From a virus, in IMG/VR virus record IMGVR_UViG_3300042507_002831, positions 1 through 22,741 of that record: a DNA stretch of 22,741 nucleotides. One strand, written 5' to 3'. Position 1 is the first letter of the stretch. Each line of letters begins with the position of its first letter. Below are positions 504-11,095 of this stretch, in pieces. The translations under genes were made by a program, and so were the position numbers. The notes beneath the pieces were generated by a model, which did not search any database, had not been told where the DNA came from, and was given only the letters and a program-made list of their open reading frames with translations.

Positions 504-718
504 CACGCTCACAACTCTGGAAAATCTATGTCAAACGCAACCCGTCATTCGACGGCGATGGCAACGTCACAATGACCGCGCGCGGTCTTCGGAAGATGTT
601 TGAGACGACGTGGGACGTTGCTTACTTCGACGGAGAAATTGAGTCAGACGGACCATATTGTCGGGATCAACCAAATGATCAGGTTGAGGCGCTGAAATCA
701 ATTTTCGGAATGAAATGA
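500..718 (+). CDS. Hypothetical protein between terminase subunits
   Basis: A 72-residue protein I cannot assign to a function. It is coupled on both sides by ATGA overlaps, with the small terminase gene upstream and the large terminase gene downstream, so it is very likely translated as part of the packaging operon. It has no signal peptide, membrane segment or cysteine pair. The segment with GNVTMTARGLRKMFETTWD looks like a short helical protein. I recall similar small ORFs at this position in other phages, but this is memory and not a search. The coupling makes it a credible gene despite its size. Confidence 0.7.
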   Translation: MTRSQLWKIYVKRNPSFDGDGNVTMTARGLRKMFETTWDVAYFDGEIESDGPYCRDQPNDQVEALKSIFGMK

Positions 719-2445
719 GCGGATCGAAACGCGCAGGCACAGCCGAGGGGATCAAACTCGCCTACGACGGGACGATTCTCGACTGGGCCGAGGCGCACGT
801 GCGCTTTCCTAACTCAGACCGCGCGAGCCGCTTTGACCGCACGGTCGCGCCGTGGATGAACGATGTCTTGCTTGCCGTCACGGACGACGAAGCCACGCAG
901 GTCTTTCTCCGCGCGAGCACCGGCGCGGGGAAGACAACGATGATGGAAACTCTTGCGTGCTTCATTGTCGCGCAGAAGCCAGGGCCGACGCTTTTCGTGG
1001 GGCAGACTGACGACATGGTGAAGGATTGGACGGAGTCGCGATTGCTGCCAATTTTCAAAGAGTGTGAGCCAGTCCGCGCATTATTCCCCGAAGACCGGCA
1101 CGCGCTCCGCAAGACGACGATATTCTTTCCGCACATGGTCTTGTTTGCAGGTGGGGCGAACATGACGAACTTGCAAGAAAAATCCATGCGCTATTGCATC
1201 GGCGATGAAGTGTGGCGCTGGAAAGACGGCATGATCAAGGAGCTGAAAGCCCGACATCACGACCGCTGGAACCGCAAGACGTTCCTATGCTCGCAGGGAG
1301 GTAGCAGCAACGATGAAATGGAGCACGAGTGGGACAGCGGCACGCGCGAAGTCTGGGGCTGGACGTGCCCGCATTGCCAAGCGTGGCAGCGATACACGTT
1401 CGACGCGATCAAATTTGAGCAACCGAAGAACGCAGCGGGGGAGATGCTTTGGGACGCTGTGCAGGACTCGGTGCGCATGGAGTGCGAGCATTGCAAAACG
1501 CAATTTCCCGACACCGCAGCGACTCGCCGTAACCTTTCAAATACTGCAACATTCCGCGCTCTCAACCCGAACCCCGTCCGAGGCCACCGCTCGTTTGAAG
1601 TGCCAGCCTACGGCGTATGGTGGATACCGTGGTTTTCGATTGTGAAAGAGTTCCTCGAGGCCAGCGAAGCCAAAGGCAACGGCAACTTGGAGCCGCTGAA
1701 GCAATTTATTCAGAAGCGCAAGGCGCAGACGTGGCAAGAAGAGATTGTTTCCGACCTGCCGGAGATCACAGCCGGCGACTACGCCAAGAGCGACTTCCTC
1801 GACGGGCAGAAGATCGACGGCGAACACCGGCGCTTTCTATGCGTGGACAAACAGCGCGATCATTTTTGGTATGTCATCCGCGCATTCCGTGCGGATGGCT
1901 CATCCATGCTTTTATCCGAGGGCAAAATCCTGACGTGGGAGACCATCGAATCGCTCGGCCTGCAATACAACGTGCCCGGGCGGAGCGTAGTCATTGACGC
2001 CGGTTACGACACTCCGCTGGTTTACGAGCGATGCGCGCGCAACGGCTGGACGGCATCGCACGGATCGGGGCAAGATGGCTTCTCGCATATCGACGGCAAC
2101 GGGCGGCGTGTAAAAAAGTTTGTCTCAAAAATTGAAACAGCAGTCGCTGGATCGGACAACCTCCGCGCGTTTTACTTTTTCCACTCGAACGAAAAGATAA
2201 AGGACAAGCTCGCCGCAATCCGCCAACCGGACGCAATGCCGAAGTGGGAAACTCCAAGGGATGCAAGCACCGACTACCGAGCGCAGATGGTTAGCGAAAT
2301 GAAAAAAGATATCGTGAATTCCAAAACGAAACAGGTGGAGTCGCGCTGGGTGCGGATCGGCGGGAGGCCGAACCATCTATTCGACTGCGAGTGCATCGCG
2401 CTCGCGTCGGCTATGCTCGCGGGAGTTTTGCCGATTGGGGAGTGA
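715..2445 (+). CDS. Terminase large subunit (lambda gpA-like)
   Basis: ATP-driven DNA-packaging motor and nuclease that cuts concatemeric DNA and pumps it into the prohead through the portal. The 576-residue protein carries a Walker A motif at residues 68-75 (STGAGKTT) and a Walker B-type hydrophobic stretch ending in Asp164-Glu165. Two CxxC pairs (CPHC 218-221 and CEHC 257-260) form a probable zinc knuckle, as in gpA-type terminases. Candidate nuclease acidic residues are Asp378, Asp428 and Asp557. Start overlaps the previous stop by ATGA. Size fits the GpA family, where lambda gpA has 641 residues. Confidence in the family is high, while the nuclease residue assignment is inference. Confidence 0.93.
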   Translation: MSGSKRAGTAEGIKLAYDGTILDWAEAHVRFPNSDRASRFDRTVAPWMNDVLLAVTDDEATQVFLRASTGAGKTTMMETLACFIVAQKPGPTLFVGQTDDMVKDWTESRLLPIFKECEPVRALFPEDRHALRKTTIFFPHMVLFAGGANMTNLQEKSMRYCIGDEVWRWKDGMIKELKARHHDRWNRKTFLCSQGGSSNDEMEHEWDSGTREVWGWTCPHCQAWQRYTFDAIKFEQPKNAAGEMLWDAVQDSVRMECEHCKTQFPDTAATRRNLSNTATFRALNPNPVRGHRSFEVPAYGVWWIPWFSIVKEFLEASEAKGNGNLEPLKQFIQKRKAQTWQEEIVSDLPEITAGDYAKSDFLDGQKIDGEHRRFLCVDKQRDHFWYVIRAFRADGSSMLLSEGKILTWETIESLGLQYNVPGRSVVIDAGYDTPLVYERCARNGWTASHGSGQDGFSHIDGNGRRVKKFVSKIETAVAGSDNLRAFYFFHSNEKIKDKLAAIRQPDAMPKWETPRDASTDYRAQMVSEMKKDIVNSKTKQVESRWVRIGGRPNHLFDCECIALASAMLAGVLPIGE

Positions 2446-2526: not shown

Positions 2527-2540
2527 ATTTTCTTGAAAAT
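2527..2540. promoter_or_regulatory. Operator-like palindrome upstream of a putative promoter
   Basis: ATTTTC, two T bases, then GAAAAT form a 6+6 dyad. It ends five bases before the predicted -35 box at 2546. Its position would suit a repressor or activator site. The binding protein is unknown, and an AT-rich palindrome of this size can occur by chance. Confidence 0.3.
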
Positions 2541-2545
2541 AATTG

Positions 2546-2574
2546 TTGACGAAAAATCAAGTTCGTGAGATAGT
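2546..2574 (+). promoter_or_regulatory. Putative sigma70-type promoter for the small-gene region
   Basis: TTGACG at 2546-2551 and GATAGT at 2569-2574 are 17 bases apart, the optimal spacing. The upstream flank is AT-rich. Transcription would start near 2581 and give a leader of about 50 bases before the ATG at 2630. The two hairpins directly upstream support a transcription boundary here. The -10 box matches the consensus at only four of six positions. Confidence 0.45.
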
Positions 2575-2629
2575 CATTCCAGATCGAAGGCACCACGCCA
2601 ACGACGAAAACAAAAAACCAAAACAAAAA

Positions 2630-2830
2630 ATGAAAACAAAATCACTGATGACAGGATGGACAAAAATCGCAAAAAGCCACTACCGCCACGAAACAAAAGT
2701 GGAAGTTCTTAAAGACAACCAAGGATGGCATGTAATCGGTGGCTCTAACTGCGGCTATGCTTACTCAACAATGTGGGTGGCTATGTATGAAGCCGCTAAA
2801 ACAAAGGCAGAGTTTGTTCGCTCAATCTAA
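2630..2830 (+). CDS. Small hypothetical protein, first hairpin-flanked cassette
   Basis: A 66-residue protein of unknown function beginning MKTKSLMTGW. A longer reading from TTG at 2543 is possible, but I prefer ATG 2630. It follows an A-rich leader almost identical to the one before the gene at 2900, and the extra N-terminal residues would be translated promoter and leader sequence. The protein is basic at the N-terminus, with aromatic residues in the second half (GYAYSTMWVAMYEAAK) and one cysteine. No membrane segment or known motif is visible. It shares the MKTK start with the next small gene, but the rest of the two proteins is not obviously related. The stop lies exactly before the first T-arm-like hairpin. 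Confidence 0.6.
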   Translation: MKTKSLMTGWTKIAKSHYRHETKVEVLKDNQGWHVIGGSNCGYAYSTMWVAMYEAAKTKAEFVRSI

Positions 2831-2862
2831 ACCACCCGGCGCGGGTTCGATCCCCTGCGCCA
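2831..2862 (+). repeat. tRNA T-arm-like hairpin, copy 1
   Basis: Begins right after a stop codon. GGCGCGGG (2838-2845) pairs with CCC and GCGCC (2853-2861, one bulged T at 2856) around the loop TTCGATC (2846-2852). The loop matches the tRNA T-loop pattern TTCRANY, closed by the G-C pair typical of T-arms. An ACCA follows at about 2869. Copy 2 at 3108-3138 matches at about 30 of 32 positions. No D-arm or anticodon arm is present, so this is not a tRNA gene. Confidence 0.8.
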
Positions 2863-2899
2863 GACTTGACCAAACAAACAAAAAACCGAAAATCAAAAA

Positions 2900-3103
2900 A
2901 TGAAAACCAAAACATCCGCACTCACCGCCCTGATCTCCGCAGGGTTCAACGCCCAGCTCAACGCCGCAGGCCTCCGCGTCTGGGGCGACAACTGGGAAGC
3001 TCAGTTCACCGACCTTGGCCAAGACCACGACACATTCGCCGGCGACGTCCCCTCCATAGTTCACGACCTTGCCGTATGGGACTGCGAAGAAACACGCGAA
3101 TGA
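2900..3103 (+). CDS. Small hypothetical protein, second hairpin-flanked cassette
   Basis: A 67-residue acidic protein of unknown function starting MKTKTSALTALISAGF. The predicted N-terminal helix is followed by a segment with WGDNWEAQFTDLGQDHDTFAGD. The final third holds two conserved-looking tryptophans and a cysteine. The A-rich leader ahead of the ATG resembles that of the 2630 gene. The T-arm-like hairpins lie on both sides, with copy 1 ending 38 bases before the start and copy 2 beginning four bases after the stop. I see no signal peptide or catalytic motif. The cassette-like arrangement argues that it is real. Confidence 0.6.
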   Translation: MKTKTSALTALISAGFNAQLNAAGLRVWGDNWEAQFTDLGQDHDTFAGDVPSIVHDLAVWDCEETRE

Positions 3104-3107
3104 AAAA

Positions 3108-3138
3108 ACCACCTGGCGCGGGTTCGATCCCCGCGCCA
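3108..3138 (+). repeat. tRNA T-arm-like hairpin, copy 2
   Basis: GGCGCGGG (3115-3122) pairs perfectly with CCCGCGCC (3130-3137) around TTCGATC (3123-3129). It lies 277 bases downstream of copy 1 in the same orientation, just after a stop codon. ACCA follows at 3141. The T-stem and downstream tail resemble the 3' end of a tRNA or tmRNA but with an acceptor segment one base short and no partner strand upstream. Confidence 0.82.
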
Positions 3139-3154
3139 CTACCAACACAAAAAA

Positions 3155-3379
3155 ATGAACACCGACAAAAAAATCAAACCAGCCACGACATATTTCGCCC
3201 GCAGTGTTTGCGACTTTGAATGCGTTTTTCAGTTGTTTGTCATTAACCGCACTGCAAAAATGGCAACGATTCAACGCGACGGGAAAACATCCAAAACAAA
3301 AATCCACACAGATTGCAGCGGGTTTGAATATCTGCGCCCTGACAATTACTCAATGGCACCAATCTTTCGGGCAGCCTAA
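3155..3379 (+). CDS. Doubtful small ORF, third cassette position
   Basis: A 74-residue reading starting MNTDKKIKPATTYFARS after an A-rich leader like those of the two preceding small genes. Its stop is one base before ATG 3381, which looks operon-like. Against it, the overlapping frame between 3204 and 3380 encodes a convincing helix-turn-helix (TQIAAGLNICALTITQWHQ), so this frame may be wrong after its first residues. An A7 run at 3167-3173 could join MNTDKK to the other frame by slippage or by an indel. It may be a real gene, a mis-framed start, or a decayed gene. Confidence 0.35.
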   Translation: MNTDKKIKPATTYFARSVCDFECVFQLFVINRTAKMATIQRDGKTSKTKIHTDCSGFEYLRPDNYSMAPIFRAA

Positions 3380-3380
3380 C

Positions 3381-3569
3381 ATGAAAAAGCCCACCACCCA
3401 CGGCGGACCGCGCAAAGGCGCGGGCCGTCCGAAAGGCAAGAAGAACGCCAACGCCAAGGGGCGGACAGTCGTGACGCGCTCCGTTTCCATGCCAGCCGAG
3501 GTCTGGCGGGATTTCGATATTCAGCGAGGAACAATGAGCAGAGGGAAGTTTATCGCATGGCTTCTTTGA
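3381..3569 (+). CDS. Small basic DNA-binding-like protein (GGPRKGAGRPKG)
   Basis: A 62-residue basic protein with an N-terminal GGPRKGAGRPKG tract, an AT-hook-like Gly-Arg-Pro sequence. A short ribbon-helix-helix-like segment follows (TRSVSMPAEVWRDFD, then SRGKFIAWLL). Such proteins are common, poorly characterised small phage and plasmid genes, and DNA binding is inferred from composition. Start ATG 3381 is chosen for its position one base after an upstream stop. The same frame is open back to GTG 3204, and that extension adds a helix-turn-helix, so the true protein may be 121 residues long. The stop TGA sits inside the TTGACA motif that precedes the gpW-like gene. Confidence 0.6.
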   Translation: MKKPTTHGGPRKGAGRPKGKKNANAKGRTVVTRSVSMPAEVWRDFDIQRGTMSRGKFIAWLL

Positions 3570-3584: not shown

Positions 3585-3833
3585 ATGGCGCAAAATTCAA
3601 CTTTTTTCGGGCTTCCGCTTGCAACGCTTCAAAACTTGCAGGAAAAATATATCGCATGTCTTGAGGCAATCGCCGTGGCGGGGGCAAGTTACAGCATCGC
3701 AGGGCGGTCGTTTACTCGGGCCAATTTGACCGAGGTTTCCAACATCGTCGGGCAGTTGCAATCCGCAATCGAATACGCAAGTGGTTCAAGAGTGAAGCGT
3801 ACCGTATCAGCCTTTTCGACACAGCGCCCCTAA
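3585..3833 (+). CDS. gpW-like head-to-tail joining protein
   Basis: An 82-residue protein placed directly before the portal gene, as W precedes B in lambda. It is predicted mostly helical, with LATLQNLQEKYIACLEAIAVAG, then a short beta-like segment (SYSIAGRSFTRAN), then a second helix (TEVSNIVGQLQSAIEYA). That helix-hairpin-helix order and the spacing fit gpW-type proteins, which sit at the portal vertex and help close the filled head and receive the tail. Lambda gpW has 68 residues, so the C-terminal 15 or so residues here are extra. Start ATG 3585 is the only one that keeps the family layout. Confidence 0.72.
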   Translation: MAQNSTFFGLPLATLQNLQEKYIACLEAIAVAGASYSIAGRSFTRANLTEVSNIVGQLQSAIEYASGSRVKRTVSAFSTQRP

Positions 3834-3836
3834 TAC

Positions 3837-6056
3837 ATGAAACAAGACTTTTTTACTCGCGCTCTGGCCGTTGTCGCACCGAAGGCCGCAATGGCCCGCA
3901 TGATTGCGCAAGACCGCCTGCGCAACTTCGGGCGATTCGACGCGGCACTGGAATCCAGCAAGCGCGGGATCTCGCGCAACATCGCCGGAGGCGAGGACAC
4001 GAGCGGCACAGCCGAGCGTTACAAGCTCATCCGCGCGGCTCGCGATCTTGCCGACAACTTCCCACCGGTGCGCTCGTTACTACTGAAATTTGCAACCTAC
4101 GTCTCGGGCCGACTCTCCTACCAAGCCCGCACCGGAAACAAAGACCTCGACGCGCAGGTTGAGCGATACTGGGCCGACTGGTGCAGCAAGTGCGATTTCC
4201 TACGGAGGCACGATTTCACCAGCCTGCTTCAGCTCGCTGTCATGGCAATCCTACGCGATGGCGACTGCGGGTTTGTTATCGTCCGCGAAGCCGGAGAACT
4301 CCGATTGCAGAGCGTGGAAGCCGACCGCATCGGCTCGCCATACAACCGTTTGATCGACTCGGACAAATACATCGGCGGCATCATGCTGGACGAATATGGC
4401 AGGCCGGAGAAATACCAGATATATGTCCGCACGATAAACAACCAATACCTCGACCCGACCGATATCGACGCAGCGGAGTTTATCCACCTATTCGACGCCA
4501 CTCGGCTCGACGAATATCGCGGGCGCTCCGCATTTGCCACGGCGCTGAACGCCGCGCGGGACTTGCAAGAGGCGTTGAAGGCCGAAATCCAAGCGATCAA
4601 GTATGCCAGCTACCAAACCGGCGTTATCACCACCGAGAACGGATCGGCAGACGCATCCGACTACTTCGCGACCAGCTCACGGAATGATAACGGGCAAACT
4701 GAGAAGCTCTCGAACATCGACCCCGGCGCGATCAATTATCTTTCGCCTGGCGAGAAGATGGAAATGTTTCAAAGCGAGCGCCCGGGCGGAGCGTTCGGCG
4801 AGTTCATCCGGCTTGTGCAGTCGCACATTTGCATGTCAGTCGGCCTGCCCTACGGCTTCGCATTCGACGCAGACAAGAGCGGGCCGATGGCACGCATGGA
4901 AGCAGCTATGGCCGAGCGCACGTTTGCTCGGTGGCGCGGGCTTCTCGAATCACAGTTTCTCAACCGCATCAAGAACATCGTCCTTCTCGACGGCGTTTCA
5001 CAAGGGAAGATTGAAGACTCAGAATTTTTGCTCGATGGCCGCTGGTGCTGGCCAGCAAAGGTCAGCATCGACTACGGGCGCGAAGCGCAAGCCGACATCG
5101 CGCTTTGGAAGGCGGGACTGAAAACAGCCGGCCAGATTTACGCAGACGCAGGCGAGGACTACGAAGAGGCACTTCGCGCAAGGGCGAAGGAGGCCGGTAT
5201 GATCAAGGAACTGGGACAAGAGTTTGACATTCAAGCAAGCCGTATTTCCGATTCGGTACCTGAGTCAGCAATCGACATTACGCCTGAGATTGGCGAGGTT
5301 GCTCCGCTCATCGAAACCATCGGCATCGGTGGCACGGATGCGCTCTCGGGAATCCTCGCATCACTTGGTCGCGGTGAGCTTTCACCTGAACAAGTCGGCA
5401 TCATACTCCGCACCGTTTTCGGCATGGATGAGGCGAGCGCAAACCAGATCATCAACGCAGAGCCAGCACCCACACCCGTACCGCAACAGGCCGCAGCCTT
5501 GCAATTCGAGGACGGCAAAAACAAGCCGACCGGCGGCATGATCGCCGAAGCCAAGAAGGGATTGGAGTGGCGTGCAAAATACAATCGCGGCGGTACAAAT
5601 GTTGGAGTCGCACGCGCTCGCGACATCTCAAACGGCGAAAATCTTTCCGACGAAACTGTGAAGCGGATGCACTCATATTTTTCGCGGCACGAAGTTGATA
5701 AAAAAGGGCAAGGTTTTCAACCAGGCGAAGATGGCTTTCCGTCCGCAGGCCGCATTGCATGGGCATTGTGGGGCGGTGACGCTGGGCAGACATGGGCAGC
5801 GGCGAAGGCACGGCGCATATCCGCAAAGGAAGCGGCCAAGAAAGGTCTCAACATGAAATTCCAACGCGACGCACACGGACGGGTTGCCAGCCTATCGCTT
5901 CCAAGCCTAACCGAGTTTGTCATTCCGTCCCCTACGGGGGGCGAGTCTGAAAAGGATTTCGTCGCTCGCTGTATGGCGGATGACACCATGCTCGCAGAAT
6001 TTCCAGACACAACCGAACGCGCAGCAGTCTGCTACGCACAACTTAAAACAAAATGA
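3837..6056 (+). CDS. Portal protein (lambda gpB-like) with long C-terminal extension
   Basis: Forms the dodecameric ring at one head vertex through which DNA enters and leaves and to which the tail attaches. The first 530 or so residues read as a lambda-type portal. Features are an early RNFGRFDAAL segment, the DFTSLLQLAVMAILRDGDCGF helix-strand region, VEADRI, a strand-rich wing with GRPEKYQIY, and the clip/stem region with RLDEYRGRSAFATALNAARDL. The protein has 739 residues against 533 for lambda gpB. From about residue 564 it carries an added domain (GGMIAEAKKGLEWR to ALWGGDAG, about 564-650) and a final KDFVARCMADDTMLAEFPD segment (706-739). I recall these two modules from other phage head proteins. 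Upstream is a 3-base gap, and the next gene overlaps by ATGA. Confidence 0.9.
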   Translation: MKQDFFTRALAVVAPKAAMARMIAQDRLRNFGRFDAALESSKRGISRNIAGGEDTSGTAERYKLIRAARDLADNFPPVRSLLLKFATYVSGRLSYQARTGNKDLDAQVERYWADWCSKCDFLRRHDFTSLLQLAVMAILRDGDCGFVIVREAGELRLQSVEADRIGSPYNRLIDSDKYIGGIMLDEYGRPEKYQIYVRTINNQYLDPTDIDAAEFIHLFDATRLDEYRGRSAFATALNAARDLQEALKAEIQAIKYASYQTGVITTENGSADASDYFATSSRNDNGQTEKLSNIDPGAINYLSPGEKMEMFQSERPGGAFGEFIRLVQSHICMSVGLPYGFAFDADKSGPMARMEAAMAERTFARWRGLLESQFLNRIKNIVLLDGVSQGKIEDSEFLLDGRWCWPAKVSIDYGREAQADIALWKAGLKTAGQIYADAGEDYEEALRARAKEAGMIKELGQEFDIQASRISDSVPESAIDITPEIGEVAPLIETIGIGGTDALSGILASLGRGELSPEQVGIILRTVFGMDEASANQIINAEPAPTPVPQQAAALQFEDGKNKPTGGMIAEAKKGLEWRAKYNRGGTNVGVARARDISNGENLSDETVKRMHSYFSRHEVDKKGQGFQPGEDGFPSAGRIAWALWGGDAGQTWAAAKARRISAKEAAKKGLNMKFQRDAHGRVASLSLPSLTEFVIPSPTGGESEKDFVARCMADDTMLAEFPDTTERAAVCYAQLKTK

Positions 6057-10135: not shown

Positions 10136-11095
10136 ATGTCACTCACCACCACCACAATTCGCGGAGACATCGCACAGGCCGTTTACGAGGGCCGCTCGAA
10201 CAAGCAAAACCTCTTCATCGGCGCCGAAGTCATGCCTATCTACGTTGCAGACGTTCGCTCGGGCGAGTATCTGAAAATCAACCTAGGCGCATCCGAGGCA
10301 CTTAACGACGACGCGACGAAGATCGCCGCTGGATCCGCCTATCCTCGCGTTGGACGCAAGTTCACATCGGACACCTTCGCCACTACCGAGTACGGCTTGG
10401 AGGAAGTCCTTCCCGACGCAACTCAGCGCGACCTCGCCCGCTTCTTGGACGTTGAGGTTGCCGTTGCCGACATGCTCCTCAGCCAGATCCAAATTGGCCA
10501 CGAGCTTCGTGTTGCCTCGCTCACCTACGCAGCGAACGGCCTCACAGCCATCTCTGCCGCCGGTGCAACCTCCGCCTACACCGAAGCCAACATCACATCG
10601 TTCGACCTTCCGGCCGACGTCGCCGCTGGCAAGTTGGAACTCGCCAAATATGGCGTGCTCCCAAACACGCTCATCATGTCCGCAGTCCTTTTCGAGCGCG
10701 TCCGCCGCTCGACCAAGGTGCAGAATCAAATGTTCGGCGTAGTCGCCACGAACTCCACCCGCCTACTCTCCGAGCAAGAAGTTGCTCAGGCAGTCGGCGT
10801 TGAAAAAGTCCTCGTTGGCCGCGCTCCTCGCAACACTGCCAAGAAGGGCCAAGCTTACTCAGGCGGATTCGTCTGGGGTGACAGCTACCTTGCACTCGCT
10901 AACACAGTTGGCGGTGAGTTCGCAGCCGGTGGATTCGGACGCACGATCCTCTGGGGCGCTGATAGCCCAGTGCCTTTCGTCTCCGAGACCTACCGCGACG
11001 AAGCCCGCCGCTCGAACATCCTCCGCGTGCGCCAGCACGTATCCGAGAAGGTTGTCGACGGCTCCTCGATCATCCGCATCACGACCGGCCTGTAA
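10136..11095 (+). CDS. Major capsid protein (HK97 fold)
   Basis: Main shell protein of the head. Its 319 residues are close to lambda gpE (341). Visible family features are an N-terminal strand-rich region (LFIGAEVMPIYVADVRSGEYLKIN), a long spine helix (RDLARFLDVEVAVADMLLSQIQIGHELRVASLTYA), a P-domain-like mid-region (LPNTLIMSAVLFERVRRS), and a typical C-terminal ending (RSNILRVRQHVSEKVVDGSSIIRITTGL). Codons are biased to C-ending forms, more than in the neighbouring accessory genes, as expected for a highly expressed gene. It follows the decoration gene after 34 bases and is closed by an intrinsic terminator. Confidence 0.88.
   Translation: MSLTTTTIRGDIAQAVYEGRSNKQNLFIGAEVMPIYVADVRSGEYLKINLGASEALNDDATKIAAGSAYPRVGRKFTSDTFATTEYGLEEVLPDATQRDLARFLDVEVAVADMLLSQIQIGHELRVASLTYAANGLTAISAAGATSAYTEANITSFDLPADVAAGKLELAKYGVLPNTLIMSAVLFERVRRSTKVQNQMFGVVATNSTRLLSEQEVAQAVGVEKVLVGRAPRNTAKKGQAYSGGFVWGDSYLALANTVGGEFAAGGFGRTILWGADSPVPFVSETYRDEARRSNILRVRQHVSEKVVDGSSIIRITTGL

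Follow-up and report, generated by a model that had tools for sequence, protein, structure and literature searches.

What are two nearly identical hairpins doing between the packaging and head genes of a phage, where each stands behind the stop codon of one small gene and in front of the next? We addressed this question in a 22,741-base virus record, here called the window, within which all stem coordinates are counted. The neighbours are those named in the original prediction, a GpA-type large terminase on one side and a gpW-like head-tail adaptor (PHROG 118) on the other, and a lambda-family portal gene also follows. The locus reads as listed below, one feature per line.

715..2445, + strand: large terminase, GpA family (Pfam GpA_ATPase 8e-31, GpA_nuclease 1e-15)
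about 2443: terminase stop codon, left edge of the exchangeable module; homology with L197 (terminase 37.6% identical) begins here
2527..2540, no strand assigned: perfect dyad ATTTTC-TT-GAAAAT (ATTTTCTTGAAAAT), a candidate operator by its sequence, immediately 5' of the promoter
2546..2574, + strand: sigma-70-like promoter TTGACG-17-GATAGT with extended TG -10 (9/12 match), conserved across terminase lineages
2589..2599, + strand: leader dyad GGC-ACCAC-GCC; GCC..GGC and GGC..GCC alternate in relatives
2600..2629, + strand: A-rich leader, recurring before the next ORF
2630..2830, + strand: cargo ORF 1 (g12, 66 aa, function unknown), 100% nucleotide identity to L197
2838..2861, + strand: hairpin 1, 8-bp stem with a bulged T, loop TTCGATC, without U-tract
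2862..2899, + strand: A-rich leader 2, from sequence
2900..3103, + strand: cargo ORF 2 (g37, 67 aa, function unknown)
3115..3137, + strand: hairpin 2, perfect stem, loop TTCGATC, without U-tract
3138..3154, + strand: A-rich leader 3, from sequence
3155..3379, + strand: cargo ORF 3 (g8, 74 aa, function unknown)
3381..3569, + strand: g0, a conserved small basic protein
3585..3833, + strand: gpW-like head-tail adaptor, right flank (PHROG 118, 1e-6)
3837..6056, + strand: portal protein, lambda family, right flank (Pfam Phage_portal_2, 1e-51)

Searches of Pfam, PADLOC and phage databases gave no match for g12, and a phage-database search gave none for g37. A TTGACC element lies 3' of hairpin 1, with a weak -10 match. 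Right after the terminase, positions 2446-2515 contain the inverted repeat TTTTCGTG-GCGT-CACGAAAA together with a hairpin region rich in GC; some relatives have similar sequences behind the terminase or an earlier gene.

The paired hairpins are real and are not a product of chance. Copy 1 reads AAACCACCC-GGCGCGGG-TTCGATC-CCC(T)GCGCC, with its stem at 2838-2861, and copy 2 reads AAACCACCT-GGCGCGGG-TTCGATC-CCCGCGCC, with its stem at 3115-3137. The two agree at 26 of 27 positions of an ungapped block, and their sole further difference is an extra unpaired T that bulges from the 3' arm in copy 1. When up to three mismatches were allowed, the 18-mer core occurred twice in the window against 0.04 expected, and none of 100 shuffled sequences held two copies. 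A covariance model built from family members found only these two loci in the window (E 1.3e-8 and 9.7e-6), and each copy has a strong fold on the + strand (z -2.6 and -4.7). A terminator scan also reported a minus-strand candidate (3138-3114), which was rejected because the genes here lie on the + strand. The surroundings that had been predicted were all confirmed: the stop codons TAA (2828-2830) and TGA (3101-3103) precede the stems by 7 and 11 nt, ACCA follows the stems at +7 in copy 1 and +3 in copy 2, and A-rich leaders with ATG-initiated ORFs (2900 and 3155) lie downstream of both.

In order to see the hairpin outside the window, we looked for relatives. The exact string CCACCNGGCGCGGGTTCGATCCCC was present in 67 viral contig stretches, and in nearly every context listed for it a coding 3' end ran into the hairpin and then into a new leader, with an identical upstream or downstream gene recurring in differing combinations. 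A looser T-loop pattern gave at least 120 viral matches, and only five stretches among 11.3 million genome contigs. One of these five, L219, is a contig of phage origin assigned by binning to a Verrucomicrobia metagenome-assembled genome (MAG). Its ORFs look phage-like along much of the contig, so that its support for a host comes from binning only. By eye, this contig (JAGWWS010000019.1) has a terminase at about 3.4 kb and a second terminase-like ORF at about 43.6 kb, and it may represent two phages or a misbinned contig. The cultured Verrucomicrobia phage P8625 matched the terminase at near full length, at about 23% identity and with the best E-value among the matches listed. From the binning of L219 and the P8625 match we take the hosts of these uncultured phages to be, with moderate confidence, probably Verrucomicrobiota.

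Two further occurrences were observed at greater distance. The less related phage contig L241, with its genes on the - strand, carries hairpins at 10381-10403 and 10628-10650, 247 nt apart, that have the same GGCGCGGG/CCCGCGCC stem around the loop CATGGTG. Each of the two seems to lie between a stop codon and the next ORF. In L217, a bacterial contig of a Chthoniobacterales MAG, the same 23-mer (437-459) sits inside a longer stem followed by TTTTCGTTTT, and this element resembles an intrinsic terminator with a T-loop.

The original prediction had likened the hairpins to a tRNA T-arm and named RNA processing and binding by T-arm enzymes among their possible roles. On such a view RNase P, RNase Z, the CCA-adding enzyme or enzymes that modify T-loops would recognise the mimic, and it would serve mRNA processing. 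The loop is TTCRANY in most hairpins of the family and ACCA lies near downstream in most copies without a U-tract, but neither trait holds up across relatives. In the same kind of setting, the loop can have C or T at position 57 or be changed at 54 or 55 (TTCCATC, TTCTATC, CTCGATC and TCCGATC), and L038 has an unrelated GCAACA loop in a similar one. The distance to ACCA varies, being 0 nt in 20 copies, 7 nt in 18, and 1, 3, 4 or 6 nt in others where the motif is not missing altogether, and ACCA is absent from all copies with a U-tract. ARAGORN and Rfam found no tRNA gene or match in the window. An origin from a host tRNA was rejected as well, for the nearest tRNA T-arms in the Verrucomicrobia MAG differ from the hairpin, and the only exact full-length copy in that MAG lies in its phage contig. 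With loops that break the T-loop rule, a varying ACCA distance and no tRNA detected, the T-arm reading is weak and we consider it very improbable. The likeness probably reflects a stable loop that descent and recombination have preserved, to which the resemblance to a tRNA arm would be incidental.

We then compared the layout of the locus among relatives. From 156 loci with terminase and portal, most of them on metagenomic fragments and with ORFs called automatically, 120 distinct regions were analysed, in which the terminase-portal interval ranged from 261 to about 2,700 nt. Hairpins were present in 92 of the 120 regions: 87 had one, 5 had two, and the remaining 28 had none. A simple multi-copy array was therefore rejected, since most loci carry a single hairpin and the two-copy state of the window is unusual. 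In 91 of the 92 regions with a hairpin, an ORF stop lay 6-15 nt before the first stem. Several relatives have empty sites of 261-284 nt, where the adaptor starts about 40 nt or less after the terminase stop, and L070, L072 and L073, which share an identical terminase protein with the window, carry one cargo gene and no hairpin. These states lead us to read the window, ordered g12-hairpin-g37-hairpin-g8-g0, as a two-cassette state. Parts of this order recur elsewhere: L197 has g12 followed by a hairpin, L077 has g37 and the same hairpin followed by a different gene, L074 joins g37 straight to g0 with no hairpin between, and in L010, L024, L035 and L061 the g8 family stands directly 5' of a hairpin.

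The outcomes in relatives that the original prediction had named as refuting did not arise: many hairpin copies were found, and the ORFs beside them vary. This strongly supports a modular cassette arrangement, in which the hairpin is kept while the adjoining ORFs differ. Cargo before the first hairpin fell into 41 families (45 over all hairpins), 12 of which occur in at least two terminase-lineage bins, as set by identity to the window's terminase; g5, g10, g20 and g30 were each found before a hairpin in three bins. Phages with terminases 24-40% identical can have a module in common at about 90-100% nucleotide identity, and the shared cargo was 100% identical between the window and L197 (terminases 37.6% identical), L050 and L065 (33%), and L011 and L036 (26%). 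In L050 and L065 the 110 nt 5' of the gene are 99% identical, gene and hairpin are 100% identical, and identity drops to 78% in the next 60 nt.

The edges of the shared sequence were similarly sharp. Homology started at the terminase stop codon in several cross-lineage pairs, and ended at +24 to +29 (hairpin = 0-23) in 7 of the 13 such pairs compared. When pairs shared at least 150 nt downstream but broke upstream (n = 408), the break fell within -40 to +20 of the stem in 396; 88% of pairs with downstream sequence in common lost homology on the 5' side of the hairpin, and 75 of 88 pairs sharing upstream sequence broke 0-40 nt past the stem, all of these being counts that describe a pattern rather than a test because contig pairs are not independent. 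In total, 35 upstream families met shared downstream sequence, and these joins made up 170 different-gene combinations. Whole modules are common to phages whose packaging genes have diverged, and homology stops at the hairpin.

One junction lies inside the hairpin itself. The 8-mer GGCGCGGG, with which the hairpin arm opens, is also found at the beginning of the coding sequence in some g0 genes, and in the recombinant L190 a g0-type start passes into the hairpin at this 8-mer, the remainder being 98% identical to L054. This junction could come from a chimeric contig, as could other single junctions of this type, because most contigs are metagenomic fragments. As to where the cargo comes from, g10 was found among 388 genomes of the MAG's phylum only in the MAG's phage contig and g8 in none of them, and a plasmid search for g38 gave no match. 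Among 20 larger contigs, RecT-type recombinases were found in only 3, and ERF and YqaJ in none.

The module has two standard ends. In an alignment of 88 left arms, the g0-bearing type carries TTGACG-17-GATWGT with an extended TG, preceded by a TTTTC..GAAAA dyad and accompanied by the leader dyad, whose arms pair in all 49 matched relatives; where g0 is lacking, the arm is of a different, A/T-rich type. On the right, the hairpin is near-invariant, at 1.7-2.0 bits per position with one loop position excepted, and the genes before it tend to end alike. GCC-TAA-C closes 22 of 45 unrelated cargo families vs 2 of 75 other ORF families from these regions. All 22 use GCC, which makes up 30% of the Ala codons in cargo, and this points to conservation at the nucleotide level across unrelated proteins. 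Both cargo genes that stand 5' of a hairpin in the window lack GCC-TAA-C.

Such an end recalls integron cassettes, in which a small ORF with a folded 3' attC element is exchanged as a module. Here, too, a small ORF comes with a single hairpin on its 3' side, the stop codon lies within an RYYYAAC-like box, and the homology boundary is often exactly at the 3' end of the hairpin, as would be expected if a tyrosine recombinase moved ORF and hairpin together on a folded single strand. The R'' consensus RYYYAAC precedes 54 of 97 copies vs 5 expected, although it was not found before the two hairpins of the window, and tyrosine integrases are present in 12 of 20 larger genomes or contigs. However, the R' box GTTRRRY follows none of the 97 copies, homology usually takes in the promoter arm besides the cassette, arrays are short, no integron platform was seen, and a search at the level of tyrosine integrases identified no matching recombinase; the larger contigs G002-G008, reached via relatives of the window's terminase, gave no integrase match. 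In L058 and L023 the module occupies a second location, with a probable late structural gene on one side and an integrase on the other, and this integrase adjoins tRNA-3'-end-like sequence, a probable attP like that of an ordinary prophage. Integron-like movement is accordingly quite unlikely. The second location, which in L058 holds a g12-type gene and g0, shows that the module is not tied to the terminase-portal junction. The tRNA-3'-end-like sequence GTGCGGGTTCGAGTCCCGCCGCCGGCACT was noted near the hairpin in L058 (about 2500-2560), L023 (about 5300), L032, L043 and L057, and is probably an attP at a tRNA gene.

A variant of this idea would make GCCTAAC-CCACCC-hairpin a dedicated recombination site, attC-like without an R' box, for the uptake and exchange of single-gene cassettes behind a common promoter. 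We consider this quite unlikely; if true, the site would be a phage-borne counterpart of the integron.

The original prediction had also offered mRNA stability as a role for the hairpins, and a part in ending or attenuating transcripts can be considered with it. A U-tract, typically TTTTCTTTT, follows 42 of 97 copies, which thereby resemble intrinsic terminators. The other 55, both window copies included, have none; with ORFs 2 and 3 and g0 downstream and no U-tract, the window hairpins do not look like terminators. A role in ending, stabilising or attenuating transcripts is possible. The division follows what lies downstream: 52 copies had g0 only, 41 a U-tract only, 3 neither and 1 both (p 1e-22, a value inflated, as are others of its kind, by a lineage split in which bin B is mostly without g0 and bins A, C and D mostly with it). 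The three copies with neither have further small ORFs downstream, and in L210 the internal copy is without a U-tract and the terminal copy has one. The rule is almost strict: a hairpin that is the last element of its unit has a U-tract, and one with cargo or g0 downstream has none. Stem variants were paired in 95% of cells, with double changes at two pairs, and these variants, being hand-picked, lend modest support to a kept stem.

These terminator-like features raise the question of whether the modules are simply morons. The morons of lambdoid phages are added genes, each equipped with a promoter-like sequence and a terminator, that lie between genes adjacent in relatives and are expressed from the prophage. 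The modules here likewise add a gene that is missing from otherwise collinear relatives, and empty sites exist. The promoter-like arm is conserved, and a U-tract follows 42 of 97 copies and neither window copy. On this account the hairpin would be a terminator or 3' stabiliser inherited with its gene and taking no part in exchange, and boundaries would meet it because selection retains whole units; sharp boundaries would indeed be expected if selection merely kept whole transcription units. The short and regular stop-to-stem spacing of 6-15 nt and the double changes that preserve pairing fit this account as well. Yet the 55 copies without a U-tract, which include the hairpins of the g0-containing version, keep the 23-nt sequence, loop included, nearly unchanged, which exceeds the needs of a terminator. 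Furthermore, GCCTAAC 5' of the hairpin is common to unrelated genes, the L190 join sits inside the stem arm, and one slot with fixed 5' and 3' elements takes dozens of unrelated genes. We therefore judge ordinary moron transcription units to be an unlikely explanation.

The small gene g0 at the end of the operon may bear on its control. It has 23 invariant residues in 11 homologues, and a low-confidence structure model shows two C-terminal helices; a search for its fold or for solved relatives gave nothing significant, and no match was found in Pfam or among the regulator families in the libraries used. From these features g0 is possibly a DNA-binding, ribbon-helix-helix-like regulator. Of 57 regions that have a g0-type gene, 48 carry the dyad and TTGAC promoter, vs none of the 63 without g0, and this co-occurrence suggests that g0 controls the dyad promoter in an Aca-like autoregulated operon of small genes. 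Anti-CRISPR/aca operons combine a promoter, variable small ORFs and, at the end, a conserved small putative DNA-binding protein. The locus studied here has a similar outline, with a promoter, highly variable small ORFs and g0 as a candidate DNA-binding protein. Library searches linked the cargo to no inhibitor of CRISPR or of another defence.

Taken together, we favour, at a probability of roughly 0.6, the reading that a mobile accessory-gene module has the hairpin as its 3' element, and that the near-invariant ends of this module serve recombinational swapping of cargo. The left element would supply the promoter, the 5' leader, the A-rich leader and often the ATGAAA start, and one of many small cargo ORFs would follow it. 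The right element would consist of the last codon and stop (GCC-TAA-C in half of the families), a CCACCC or CCAACC spacer, and the hairpin. The near-invariant elements would act as short homology, through which phage recombination may swap cargo in co-infection or with prophages. In the two-cassette state of the window (cargo-hairpin-cargo-hairpin-cargo-g0), the hairpins would leave the operon readable to g0 and stabilise or attenuate the upstream cargo mRNA, while g0 would autoregulate the dyad promoter. We infer that the hairpin combines two functions, a transcript-end element and homology for gene swapping.

The closest parallels are found in T4-like phages and in the morons described above. 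As far as the account in PMC4503421 goes, the promoter-early-stem-loops (PeSLs) of these phages are conserved regulatory stem-loops between small accessory genes and sites of gene shuffling among related phages, with promoter and terminator in one motif that T4-like myoviruses carry at high density (Arbiol et al., 2010; Comeau et al., 2014). A repeated conserved stem-loop beside small accessory genes, with gene shuffling there, is found here too. In contrast to PeSLs, the promoter arm and the hairpin flank the cargo on opposite sides, a phage usually has one or two hairpins, and the stem-loop is nearly invariant, T-loop-like, in many copies without a U-tract, and common to phages with diverged terminases. 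The setting also differs, with a lambda-type portal, a GpA terminase and a gpW-like adaptor in place of a T4-like myovirus. The exchange slot with fixed ends is thus best read as resembling a mobile regulatory cassette of PeSL or moron type in new phages.

In summary, judged from sequence comparison, the hairpins appear to be the downstream edge of a standard expression slot, through which dozens of unrelated small genes are swapped among very different viruses. The slot, common to phages with packaging genes about 25-40% identical, gives a clear picture of single accessory gene swaps. It also helps to find short, uncharacterised genes that are strongly exchanged, of which 45 families were collected here, and as a place to seek anti-defence functions in uncultured, probably verrucomicrobial, phages. 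Importantly, it makes testable whether conserved terminator-like hairpins drive phage mosaicism, or only survive it.
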